From Chloroflexota bacterium (GTDB lineage: Bacteria; Chloroflexota; UBA11872), in the NCBI GenBank assembly GCA_022826485.1, contig JAJDUU010000028.1:1-64000 (forward strand): a DNA stretch of 64,000 nt, in the 5' to 3' direction. Under the pieces are notes generated by a model. That model had not been told where the DNA came from. It did no database searches and worked only from the letters and a program-made list of their open reading frames with translations. Made by a program: the position numbers and the translations under genes. Shown here piece by piece: positions 45,481 through 49,686 of the stretch (positions are counted from its first letter, which is position 1; each line of letters opens with the position of its first letter).

Positions 45481-46224
45481 ATGACTCGACGACGAGTGCT
45501 GATCGGCGGCGGAGCAGTCGGAGCCATCGTGGCGGTGGTGATCGCCTATTGGCTGATATCGCCGCTCTTTCGCGACACCGTGGTGGACGAGGCGTTCCCA
45601 TTCGAGGTGCCGGAACCCGCCGCCATGGAGACCATGACCGAGGAAGAGAAACAGGAGATGGTCGCCGAGTTCGAGGCCGCCATGCCCACCTTGATGGAAA
45701 TCGAGGCTCTTGCCGAGGCGGACCGCATGGCGGTCCAGGAGCGCGTGATGGAGGCGGCTGCCGTCATGCCCGACACCGTGATGGATGAGCCGATGCCGCC
45801 CATGCCGGCGGCGGAGGCCACGCCGGCGCCGGAAGCTACGCCAGCGGCGGAAGCCACGCCAACGCCGGAGGCCGCGCCGCAGCCCGAGCGCTTGCGCGAG
45901 GGCCAATTCCGCGGCGCCGACAACTTCCACCGCGGCTCCGGAACGGCCACGATTTTCCGCACCCCCGACGACAAGCTGGTGCTGCGCCTCACGGACTTCA
46001 TGGTCACCAATGGTCCGGCGCTCAGCGTGCTGCTGTCCTCGTCGCCCGCGCCGGCGTCCAGTCAGCAGCTGGGCGAGTACATCGACGTGGGCGCGCTGAA
46101 GGGCAACATCGGCAACCAGAACTACGAAGTCCCGGCCGGCACCGACCTTTCGGCGTACAACAGCGTCGTCATCTACTGCGTGCCGTTCCGCGTCGTGTTC
46201 GCGACCGCCACCCTCCCCGCGTAA
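45481..46224 (+). CDS. Membrane-anchored DM13-domain protein
   Basis: A 247-residue protein. Residues 1-27 are a basic start plus one hydrophobic helix (signal anchor), so the rest is outside. Residues about 50-85 are a Met/Glu-rich helix with many methionines. Residues about 100-138 form an EATP/EAAP repeat linker. The C-terminal DM13 domain (about 142-247) shows GQFRGADNFHRGSGTA, LVLRLTDFMVTNGPALSVLLS and the late YCVPFRVVFATATL with the family's nearly invariant Cys. Iyer, Anantharaman and Aravind proposed that DM13 domains take part in electron transfer. It is followed after one base by the flavoprotein gene, so the two probably act together. Confidence 0.88.
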   Translation: MTRRRVLIGGGAVGAIVAVVIAYWLISPLFRDTVVDEAFPFEVPEPAAMETMTEEEKQEMVAEFEAAMPTLMEIEALAEADRMAVQERVMEAAAVMPDTVMDEPMPPMPAAEATPAPEATPAAEATPTPEAAPQPERLREGQFRGADNFHRGSGTATIFRTPDDKLVLRLTDFMVTNGPALSVLLSSSPAPASSQQLGEYIDVGALKGNIGNQNYEVPAGTDLSAYNSVVIYCVPFRVVFATATLPA

Positions 46225-46225
46225 G

Positions 46226-48067
46226 GTGCGCCGCCGGCGCGCCGGTCGCCTGGTGACGCGCATCGCGCGTGAGCCTGTCGCGATCGGCGCCCTGGCGGGA
46301 GCCGCCGCGGCGCTCGTGTTTCTCGTTCCCGCGACGCCCATGGGCGGGTTCGACGGTTTGCTCGGGTCGCCGGTCGACGGCGCGCTGCTGGCCGTGCATC
46401 TGGTCATCGGCGCCGCGGCGGGAGCGGCGTACGCGCGCGTGATTCCGCTGCACCGGCGCGGCGAGCACGCCTCGCGCATCACGCTGGCCCTCATGGCCGG
46501 GCTCGGCCTCTGGATCGTCGGCCCGCTCACCATCGGCCCCGCGCTCGACGGCGCCGCGCCCACCTGGTCGGTCGAAGCCGCGTCACGGCACTTCCCCAGC
46601 CTCATCGCGCATCTGATGTTCGGCGGCGGTCTCGGCGTGCTGCTCGCGCTGGCAGCTCGGGCAGGCGTCGGCCGCGGCGCCGACGCGTCAACCGCCTCCC
46701 GAGAGGCGAGGCAACCGCTGCGCGTGGTGATCATCGGCGGCGGCTTCGCCGGCATGGGGGCCGCGCAACGCTTCGAGGAGCTGAACCGCCGGGACATCCC
46801 CCTGGACGTGACCCTGGTGAGCCGCAGCAATTTCCTGCTGTTTACGCCCATGCTGGCCGAGGTCGCGTCGAGCGGCCTGGACGCCCAGGCGATCTCGGCG
46901 CCCATCCGCGTCGCCTGCCCGCACACGCGTTTCCGCCACGCCGACGTGCGAGCCGTCGATACCGACGCCAAGCGAGTCACGGCGCTGACGGTCGGCTCCG
47001 ACGCAACCGAGGAGATCGCCTACGACCATCTGATCGTGGCGGTCGGCTCCGTGCCCGCGTTCTACGGCCTCCCGGGCCTTGCCGAGCACGCCTTCACTCT
47101 CAAGACCCTGGAGGATGCCGCCCGCCTGCGCAACCACGTCATCACGGCGCTGGAGACCGCCGAGCAGCAGACCGACGGGCCCGCGCGGCAGGCGCTGCTG
47201 ACGTTCGTCGTGGCCGGAGGCGGATTCGCGGGAACGGAGGCCATCGCCGAGCTGTTCGACCTCGTCCGCAGCGTGCGCCGCTACTACCCCGGCATCGCAC
47301 GCGACGAGCCGCGCTTTGTGCTGGTGCACTCCAGCGACCGCATCATTCCCGAGCTGAGCCGCGAGTTGGGCGACTACGCCCGCGAACGGCTGGAACGCCG
47401 CGGCATCGAGTTCGTGCTCGGCCAGCGCGTGGCCGCCGCCGATGCCGAGAGCGTCACCCTCGACGACGGCGCCCGGCTTCCCACGCGCACCCTGGTGTGG
47501 ACCGCCGGCAACCAGCCCAGCCCGCTCTTGCGCGGCATGCCCTGTGAGCGCAACCGTCGCGGCCAGCTCGTCGTCGAGCCCACGTTGCAAGTGCCGGGGC
47601 TCGACGGCGTGTGGGCCCTGGGCGACGGGGCGCAGGTGCCGGACGTGCACCGGCCCGGCGCCTTTCACCCGCCCACCGCCCAGCACGCGATCCGGCAAGG
47701 CAAGGCCGTGGCCGACAACGTCGTGGCCGTCGCGCGCGGGCAGGCGCCCAAGCCGTTCAGCTATCGCGCGGTCGGCTCGCTGGTGGCGCTCGGGTCCCGC
47801 ACCGCTGCCGCGGAGGTGGCCGGCCGCAAGTTCTCGGGCTTCGTCGCGTGGGTCATGTGGCGCACGATCTACTTCACCAAGCTGCCGGGCATGGACCGCA
47901 AGGTGCGGGTGGCGCTCGACTGGGCCATCGATCTGCTGTTCCCGCGCGACATCGTGCTGCTGCCAGGGCCGTCGGACGCGGTGGAGTCGAGCGCCGGTGG
48001 TCGTGACGGCGCGGCCGATCCCCGTCCCGCACCCGAGCCGGTCGCCCCCGGAGCGTCGGACGCATGA
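46226..48067 (+). CDS. NDH-2-type FAD/NAD(P) oxidoreductase fused to an N-terminal four-helix membrane module
   Basis: A 613-residue protein. Residues about 15-150 form a hydrophobic module with the motif GLGLWIVGPLTIGP then PTWS and LIAHLMFGGGLG, also found three times in the next gene. The flavoprotein part starts near 165: VVIIGGGFAGMGAA (first Rossmann, FAD), VVAGGGFAGTEA (about 328-340, NADH), VWTAGNQPS, GDGAQVP near 470, and a C-terminal FVAWVMWRTIYFTKLPG membrane-binding stretch typical of type II NADH dehydrogenases. It should oxidise NAD(P)H and reduce quinone or a partner. GTG at 46226, one base after the DM13 stop; its stop overlaps the next start (ATGA). Confidence 0.88.
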   Translation: MRRRRAGRLVTRIAREPVAIGALAGAAAALVFLVPATPMGGFDGLLGSPVDGALLAVHLVIGAAAGAAYARVIPLHRRGEHASRITLALMAGLGLWIVGPLTIGPALDGAAPTWSVEAASRHFPSLIAHLMFGGGLGVLLALAARAGVGRGADASTASREARQPLRVVIIGGGFAGMGAAQRFEELNRRDIPLDVTLVSRSNFLLFTPMLAEVASSGLDAQAISAPIRVACPHTRFRHADVRAVDTDAKRVTALTVGSDATEEIAYDHLIVAVGSVPAFYGLPGLAEHAFTLKTLEDAARLRNHVITALETAEQQTDGPARQALLTFVVAGGGFAGTEAIAELFDLVRSVRRYYPGIARDEPRFVLVHSSDRIIPELSRELGDYARERLERRGIEFVLGQRVAAADAESVTLDDGARLPTRTLVWTAGNQPSPLLRGMPCERNRRGQLVVEPTLQVPGLDGVWALGDGAQVPDVHRPGAFHPPTAQHAIRQGKAVADNVVAVARGQAPKPFSYRAVGSLVALGSRTAAAEVAGRKFSGFVAWVMWRTIYFTKLPGMDRKVRVALDWAIDLLFPRDIVLLPGPSDAVESSAGGRDGAADPRPAPEPVAPGASDA

Positions 48068-49524
48068 TCCGGTCCGACCGGCTCGCCGCATGGCTGCTGA
48101 CCGGCGCGCTGGCCGGGCTGGTGGGCGGCGTGGTGCTGGCCCTGGCCATGCTGGAGCTGGGGATGATGGCGTCCATGGCGCTCATCGTCACCGCCCGCGA
48201 GTCGCTGGGCGTCGGGCTCCTGGTGCACTTCGCCCTCTCCGCCATCTTCGGCGTGCTATTCGCGGCCCTCGTGCGCAACCAGGCGCGCCGCAACGACGCC
48301 CTGGTGTTCTGGGGCCTCGCCTACGGGGCGGTCGTGTGGTTCCTGGACCCGCTCACTCTCTACCCGCTCACGTCCGGCCAGCCGGTCACCTGGTCGCTGG
48401 CGGCGGCGCAATCGTCGTTCGACTTGCTGCTCGGCTTCCTGCTCTACGGCGCGACGACGGGCCTGGCGCTGCTGGTCCTGAGCCGGCCGGTCGTGCGCCG
48501 GCCCTCGCTCACGGGCCTGGGACTTGGAGCTGCCGCGGGACTGGCGGCGGCGGCCATCGCGGCAGGCCTGCTGAACGACCAGGGGCTGACGCCCACATTC
48601 GCCGCGCTGCCGTCCGACACGGCCGGGCCGCCGGCCTGGCTGGCCGCGCTGGTCATCGGCGCGGTCGCCGGCGCGGGATTCGCGGCCCTGGCCCAGCGCC
48701 CCAGCGACAGCGCCGGGGCCGGACTCGTGCGCGGCGCCATGTATGGCTTTCTACTCTGGGTCGTGCTGCGGCTCACGATCCTTCCGCTGATTCTGGACGG
48801 CGGCCTCCCCTGGTCGGCGGGCGCAGCCGCGGAGGCCTACCCCTCGCTGCTCGCCTATCTGGTCTTCGGCGGCTTTCTGGGCGTGGGCTATCAGTGGCTG
48901 CGCAAGCTCTGGCGCGTCCTCTTCGATGAGATCGACAGCTCCGACGACGAGGAAGGCGTGGGGACCCGCGGCCTGCGCGCCCTCGGCCGCGGCGTTGCCG
49001 CCGGCGTGGTCGGCGGACTGCTCTTTACCTACGTCATGATGCAGGTCGGCGCGCTGCGCGGCGTGGCCGGCCTCATGGGCGGCGAGTCGCAGATCGCGGG
49101 CCTCGTGATCCATCTAGTCATCGCGATGCTCTTCGGCGCGGCCTACGGCCTGCTGTTCCGCCGCCAAAGCTACGACGCGGGCTCCGCCGTGGGTTGGGGC
49201 GTCTCCTACGGGTTCTTCCTCTGGATTCTCGGCCCGCAGATCCTCATGCCCATGCTGCTCGGCGCCACGCCCGCCTGGTCGGCCGCCGGCGCCGCCTCAT
49301 TGACCGCGAGCCTGGTCGGCCACCTCGCCTACGGCGCGGGCCTGGGGCTGACCTATCACTGGTTCGAGACAAGGCACAACCCCTGGTGGATTGCCCGCCG
49401 CCAGGCCGACGAGGCCCGCCTGCAACGCCGCCGCGAGGCCCTCCAAAGCGCCGCCCCGGCCCTCTGGGCGCTGGTGCTCGTCGTGGGTCTGACGCTGCCG
49501 GTAATCCTGGGTGCACCGGCGTAA
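48064..49524 (+). CDS. Polytopic membrane protein made of three copies of one module
   Basis: A 486-residue protein with about twelve membrane helices. I find three copies of a module of about 130-150 residues (about 8-140, 155-285, 305-440). The shared pattern is G-x3-W-x5-7-L-x-P-x-L, then P-x-W-S-x2-A-A, then L-x-[YF]-G-x3-G; for example FLWILGPQILMPML and PAWSAAGAASL in the third copy, FLWVVLRLTILPLIL and LPWSAGAAAE in the second. The same pattern occurs once at the N-terminus of the NDH-2 fusion encoded just before. Function unknown. A role as membrane partner or anchor of the flavoprotein is inference from coupling and shared module. Confidence 0.85.
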   Translation: MIRSDRLAAWLLTGALAGLVGGVVLALAMLELGMMASMALIVTARESLGVGLLVHFALSAIFGVLFAALVRNQARRNDALVFWGLAYGAVVWFLDPLTLYPLTSGQPVTWSLAAAQSSFDLLLGFLLYGATTGLALLVLSRPVVRRPSLTGLGLGAAAGLAAAAIAAGLLNDQGLTPTFAALPSDTAGPPAWLAALVIGAVAGAGFAALAQRPSDSAGAGLVRGAMYGFLLWVVLRLTILPLILDGGLPWSAGAAAEAYPSLLAYLVFGGFLGVGYQWLRKLWRVLFDEIDSSDDEEGVGTRGLRALGRGVAAGVVGGLLFTYVMMQVGALRGVAGLMGGESQIAGLVIHLVIAMLFGAAYGLLFRRQSYDAGSAVGWGVSYGFFLWILGPQILMPMLLGATPAWSAAGAASLTASLVGHLAYGAGLGLTYHWFETRHNPWWIARRQADEARLQRRREALQSAAPALWALVLVVGLTLPVILGAPA

Positions 49525-49543: not shown

Positions 49544-49686
49544 GTGTAGGGGCGGTTCGCGAACTGCCCCCATCCGTCATTCCCGCGGAGGCGGGAATCC
49601 AGGCCCAATCTGGCAGCAGCCACACACTAGACGCGCACCCATCGCCGCGCGGTTGAAACGCAGGAGCGGGTTTCAAACCCGCCCCT
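49544..49686. repeat. Repeat cluster after the redox operon
   Basis: 49544-49569 is a GTAGGGGCGGTTCGCGAAC palindrome. 49574-49600 is the 27-bp dispersed palindrome with one base changed in the loop (GGAG for GAAG). 49661-49686 is a GCGGGTTTCAAACCCGC palindrome that recurs at 50165-50190. Confidence 0.9.

Follow-up and report, generated by a model that had tools for sequence, protein, structure and literature searches.

Textbooks present NDH-2 as a surface-bound NADH dehydrogenase of a single subunit. The DUF1440/DUF6789 family, on the other hand, is to our knowledge uncharacterised and without established function, and searches of the open-access literature for DUF1440 together with NDH-2, for DUF6789 and for fused NDH-2 in Chloroflexi returned nothing relevant. 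The NDH-2 motifs GxGxxG, GxGxxGxE, GD and AQxAxQ/AQxAxR have been tied to the FAD, nucleotide and quinone sites, and AQxAxR, found in 15% of NDH-2s, counts as an established variant of the quinone site (PMC5299459). At the locus described here, an NDH-2-type flavoprotein carries a DUF1440-type membrane module at its N-terminus and is encoded beside a protein made largely of three further copies of that module. The two genes form a conserved pair, and both this pairing and the anatomy of the proteins are firm.

The locus belongs to the window, that is, the whole 64,000-nucleotide stretch of Chloroflexota DNA analysed, and its three coupled ORFs, all on the + strand, read as earlier described. 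The first (45481–46224) encodes a DM13 protein with an N-terminal membrane anchor, a DM13 domain containing Cys233 and, between the two, a Met-rich acidic stretch (10 Met in residues 46–105). Its TAA stop (46222–46224) is separated by one base from the GTG start (46226) of the 613-aa flavoprotein (46226–48067), whose own end overlaps the triple-module gene in an ATGA (ATG at 48064, TGA at 48065–48067). The latter gene (48064–49524) specifies a membrane protein of 486 aa with 13 predicted membrane helices. A short palindrome, attcccgcggaggcgggaat, found 3' of it at 49575–49600, resembles a dispersed intergenic repeat.

Pfam assigned Pyr_redox_2 and NDH2_C (PF22366; 35.5 bits, cut-off 27.7) to the flavoprotein, whose catalytic core spans residues about 165–580 (46718–47965, + strand) and includes two nucleotide-binding motifs, the GD pair, AQxAxR and NDH2_C. 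The GxGxxG (FAD) and GxGxxGxE (NADH) motifs were kept in 23/23 fused rows of the alignment, as were G466 D467 and A485 Q486 x A488 x R490 (AQxAxR). Solved NDH-2s proved to be the closest solved relatives in a profile search (E down to 2e-107), and the core model superposed on them (Foldseek, 9mqy, E 4e-35, TM 0.84 by target). Motifs, family and fold thus bore out the NDH-2-type reading of this protein, and by its family the fusion likely reduces a quinone. At the position that follows the second Rossmann strand, an acidic residue is usual for NADH, and Glu is indeed kept there in five of the eight unfused relatives; the residue is His in all 23 fused rows, with Arg two positions further on in 16 of them, which may indicate use of, or a shift towards, NADPH. 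Complex I, a haem-copper oxidase and CtaA were found in the window's genome as well; it therefore has a respiratory chain of its own, and the fusion is not its sole NADH entry point. Some NDH-2 relatives of the fused clade lack the module and carry a C-terminal cyclic-nucleotide-binding domain (L102:7179-8765, L103:6957-8612 and L104:7957-9672, Pfam-confirmed for L104).

The four-helix module of the fusion occupies residues 9–148 (46250–46669, + strand) and matched the three modules of the neighbouring protein with E-values of 3e-14, 6e-18 and 5e-21 in pairwise blastp run without low-complexity mask or composition correction. When the triple protein was used as the query of a whole-genome search, the fusion module was recovered independently (E 8e-11), and a stand-alone module from another family matched the third module of the window with E 2e-26 and 43% identity. 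From these blastp, whole-genome and stand-alone matches we conclude that the shared module reflects common ancestry rather than chance, which upholds the strong point of the original prediction. The triple protein scored 52.2 bits with DUF1440 (cut-off 34.7) and also matched DUF6789, and DUF1440 was matched by all 24 triple-protein homologues. Single copies, that of the fusion included, fall under the curated DUF1440 cut-off, yet the blastp and whole-genome matches make the fusion module clearly homologous to those of the triple protein. It had been anticipated that a DUF1440-type module with an unrelated role would speak against a redox system; the module is DUF1440-type by Pfam, but that family has no established role and the gene surroundings seen in this survey point to redox.

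The internal repeats were also recovered largely as predicted. Delimited by blastp and a structure model, the three copies lie on the + strand at residues 5–143 (48076–48492), 149–285 (48508–48918) and 303–440 (48970–49383); however, the protein does not end with them, as the model adds a thirteenth, C-terminal membrane helix (residues 464–482; 49453–49509, + strand). Likewise, the module motifs had been given correctly overall, but P-x-W-S is inexact, being V-T-W-S in copy 1 and L-P-W-S in copy 2. The model of the triple protein (pLDDT 86, pTM 0.88) shows four long helices in each module and one more at the end, 13 in all, interspersed with short ones, whereas the fusion module yielded a model of middling confidence only. 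In 24 homologues, K+R make up 21% of the predicted inner loops vs 4.6% of the outer loops, and this enrichment would place the helix ends with highly charged loops on the cytoplasmic side. In this orientation the W, G-P, P and W-S positions, which are strongly conserved, and one histidine each on TM2 and TM4 come to lie towards the predicted outer side, opposite the enzyme. For module 3, the predicted topology puts six to seven residues between each histidine (H350, 49111–49113; H420, 49321–49323; + strand) and the outer end of its helix; alignment columns identify the counterparts of the two in the fusion module as H58 (46397–46399) and H129 (46610–46612; both + strand).

Both histidines were kept in 15/15 stand-alone modules and in 23 of the 24 third modules, and they were either both present or both absent in 101 of 109 modules, rows that are related and do not make an independent tally. 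This both-or-neither pattern argues for a linked role of the two residues. They are, on the other hand, missing from most second modules, including that of the window, and the pair has been lost from the fusion modules of more distant lineages, so it is not needed everywhere. The triple protein and the fusion module contain no Cys, and no column exceeds 15% Cys across the 109 modules; a thiol relay of the DsbD/CcdA/VKOR type was rejected on account of this lack of conserved membrane cysteines. By sequence, the triple protein had no solved relative, and Foldseek returned no known fold below E 0.2. The best VIA-align score (Z 6.0 over one module, to MmpL helices) is within the range of unrelated helical bundles, and the absence of a fold match does not imply a new fold. 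No structural or profile match connected the modules with a quinone- or haem-binding membrane family. COX15/CtaA also carries histidines on paired helices; no homology to CtaA was seen, with an hhalign probability of 0.1 against a small 16-row CtaA profile.

The conservation of the locus was surveyed in 101 relatives and 400 genomes of Chloroflexota, with neighbourhoods rebuilt by a home-made gene caller. Wherever the triple-module protein occurred, a module-bearing NDH-2 was encoded directly upstream on the same strand, which amounted to 24 loci in 23 genomes of five families: six genomes of the window's genus, 11 of the sister genus and, from four further families, G091, G286 (two loci), G304, G328, G358 and G383. 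Seventeen of the 23 genomes belong to one family and many loci are near relatives, so that the independent weight of the survey is that of five families; the three f21 genomes have an estimated contamination of 8–10%, and in G015 the contig ends within the fusion gene. In a quick tree of the NDH-2 domain alone, computed without bootstrap, the fused enzymes formed one clade (SH-aLRT 98), and a single fusion event can therefore explain them. One pattern-limited genome scan beyond the phylum returned only Chloroflexi, and a plasmid search uncovered two single modules from Deinococcus; we do not take this to mean that other phyla lack them. Both pairs of G286 are preceded by a DUF417/DoxX-like membrane gene (L154:6344-10180 and L184:3950-7629), and in G383 (L156:6204-12847) the surroundings of the pair are those of thiol redox, with a CcdA-redoxin fusion and another CcdA-like gene beside it.

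The DM13 protein conformed to its description as membrane-anchored and Met-rich with a conserved Cys; it scored 64.5 bits with PF10517 (Pfam cut-off 25) and Cys233 was kept in 16/16 aligned DM13 proteins. Its linkage to the pair is a different matter. All six genomes of the window's genus (6/6) have the DM13 gene immediately 5' of the pair. In the sister genus, all 11 genomes with the pair (11/11) carry DM13 on a separate contig, beside a polyketide-cyclase-like protein and unrelated genes, and neighbourhood reconstruction placed none near the pairs of G091, G286, G304, G328, G358 and G383. DM13 also occurs without the pair in G006 and is widespread without it in the class. Thus, of the proposal that the three coupled genes act as one system, the fusion and triple-module pair stood, being strict across five families, whereas DM13 is linked in the genus only; we rejected it as a core part of the conserved unit and regard it as a lineage-specific neighbour. 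A redox role for DM13 is nonetheless plausible. In G019, of the same order as the window, the gene sits inside a UbiA-UbiX-UbiD cluster (L174:5950-9542), which suggests a link to quinone metabolism, and in G025 and G029 it lies beside CtaA.

Stand-alone modules keep company of their own. A Crp/Fnr-type regulator was found in 10 of 13 single-module regions of the phylum that were inspected and also near the module of G038, and these eleven regions further contain a small thioredoxin-like protein (9/11) and DUF3179 (5/11). CcdA-type and DsbA-like proteins adjoin one stand-alone module region (L160). At E 1e-6, the Crp and thioredoxin-like queries had no match in other NDH-2 or DM13 neighbourhoods; DUF3179, a family for which selenoprotein members bearing a UxxC/T motif have been listed (PMC9312934), is also present in three DM13 neighbourhoods (L099, L100, L178). 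The module of Deinococcus taeanensis has a Crp/Fnr regulator and a pyridine-nucleotide oxidoreductase as its neighbours, and that of D. peraridilitoris lies not far from a VKOR-family gene. This company supports the view that the module belongs to redox biology and is the best indirect evidence for it. The recurrent Chloroflexota cluster of a stand-alone DUF1440-type module, Crp/Fnr, a small thioredoxin-like protein and often DUF3179 spans L160-L172, with examples at L161:6311-10362, L170:7251-8895 and L172:426-3682.

Read from sequence or structure prediction, the anatomy, the NDH-2 motifs and fold, the shared module, the conserved pair and the single fused clade lead us to favour, at a little under an even chance, a two-gene membrane redox unit, namely an NAD(P)H:quinone oxidoreductase on a dedicated membrane platform. 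The flavoprotein would oxidise cytoplasmic NAD(P)H and presumably reduce a membrane quinone, as NDH-2s do, but unlike an ordinary NDH-2 it would be built onto the membrane via its four-helix DUF1440-type module. Fusion and cognate 13-helix protein probably assemble into one four-module platform, outside of which DM13 would remain. The redox job of this platform beside the flavin, the weakest step of the scheme, would most simply be quinone or quinol handling near the outer leaflet, the side on which the paired histidines and the conserved W, G-P, P and W-S are clustered. The strict pairing, the single clade, the intact NDH-2 motifs and the respiratory chain of the genome speak for such a unit, as do histidine conservation, loop charges and the redox neighbours of stand-alone modules; histidine loss, the lack of a quinone or haem family match, the middling model of the fusion module and the near-relative loci weigh against it. 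Its strongest rival, which we regard as doubtful, is that the modules serve purely to attach an ordinary NDH-2 to membrane and partner, with no handling of cofactor, quinone, electrons or protons. That NDH-2 is self-sufficient elsewhere, that the histidines are dispensable in many module copies and that no cofactor family matches are all in its favour, but a separate gene with three more modules, strictly paired with that of the enzyme, exceeds the needs of an anchor; moreover, conserved residues cluster towards the predicted outer side, opposite the enzyme, and stand-alone modules occur among redox genes without any NDH-2.

The role of the module may be that of a scaffold, quinone handling or a haem-like electron path, the last being the least supported. 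A bolder reading along this line, which we consider improbable, makes the DUF1440-type module itself a membrane redox unit: its TM2 and TM4 histidines, at the same depth in the outer half, would bind haem b or quinone, fusion and partner would link cytoplasmic NAD(P)H with the outer face by a path of several centres, and the stand-alone modules, among them YagU, would likewise be redox proteins. We deem it quite improbable that, as originally proposed, electrons pass from NAD(P)H through the flavoprotein and across the membrane via the modules to an external DM13. The invariant gene order within the genus, an anchor that puts the DM13 domain outside, the UbiA-UbiX-UbiD and CtaA contexts of other lineages and histidine pairs towards the outer half would fit such a path; however, pair and DM13 part company in the sister genus and the other families, and no cofactor chain was identified in modules that also lack cysteines. 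Very improbable, finally, is a proton path or a device against pH stress that the NAD(P)H enzyme would gate, conceived after YagU, an acid-induced DUF1440 protein whose mutation lowers survival at pH 2 about three-fold (PMC1626474). YagU keeps both histidines, but its mechanism is not established, its resemblance to these modules is barely detectable, and stand-alone modules lie with redox genes.

The favoured two-gene redox unit would make this conserved lineage, with its module-welded enzyme and 13-helix partner, an unusual two-subunit NDH-2, and the pair offers a concrete lead to the function of DUF1440/YagU proteins, which are uncharacterised. The key prediction, a quinone or haem at the histidine pair, extends to the stand-alone module, which is about 145 residues long. 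As for the DM13 family (PF10517), the window's protein has the family score and the conserved Cys in common with it, and its Met-rich stretch recurs in the sister genus and some relatives of the order, being shortened or absent elsewhere. With DUF1440 (PF07274, which includes E. coli YagU) and DUF6789 (PF20587) the locus shares the four-helix module, both histidines of which align in YagU, but here three copies are joined in one protein and a fourth is fused to an enzyme. With the mycobacterial NDH2 (9mqy) and the Caldalkalibacillus thermarum NDH-2 (4nwz), the fusion shares fold, FAD and nucleotide motifs, GD pair and NDH2_C, and the AQxAxR variant of the quinone motif is common to it and its NDH-2 kind, whereas it differs from them in its N-terminal four-helix module, its obligate 13-helix partner and the His that follows the second Rossmann strand in place of the usual acidic residue.
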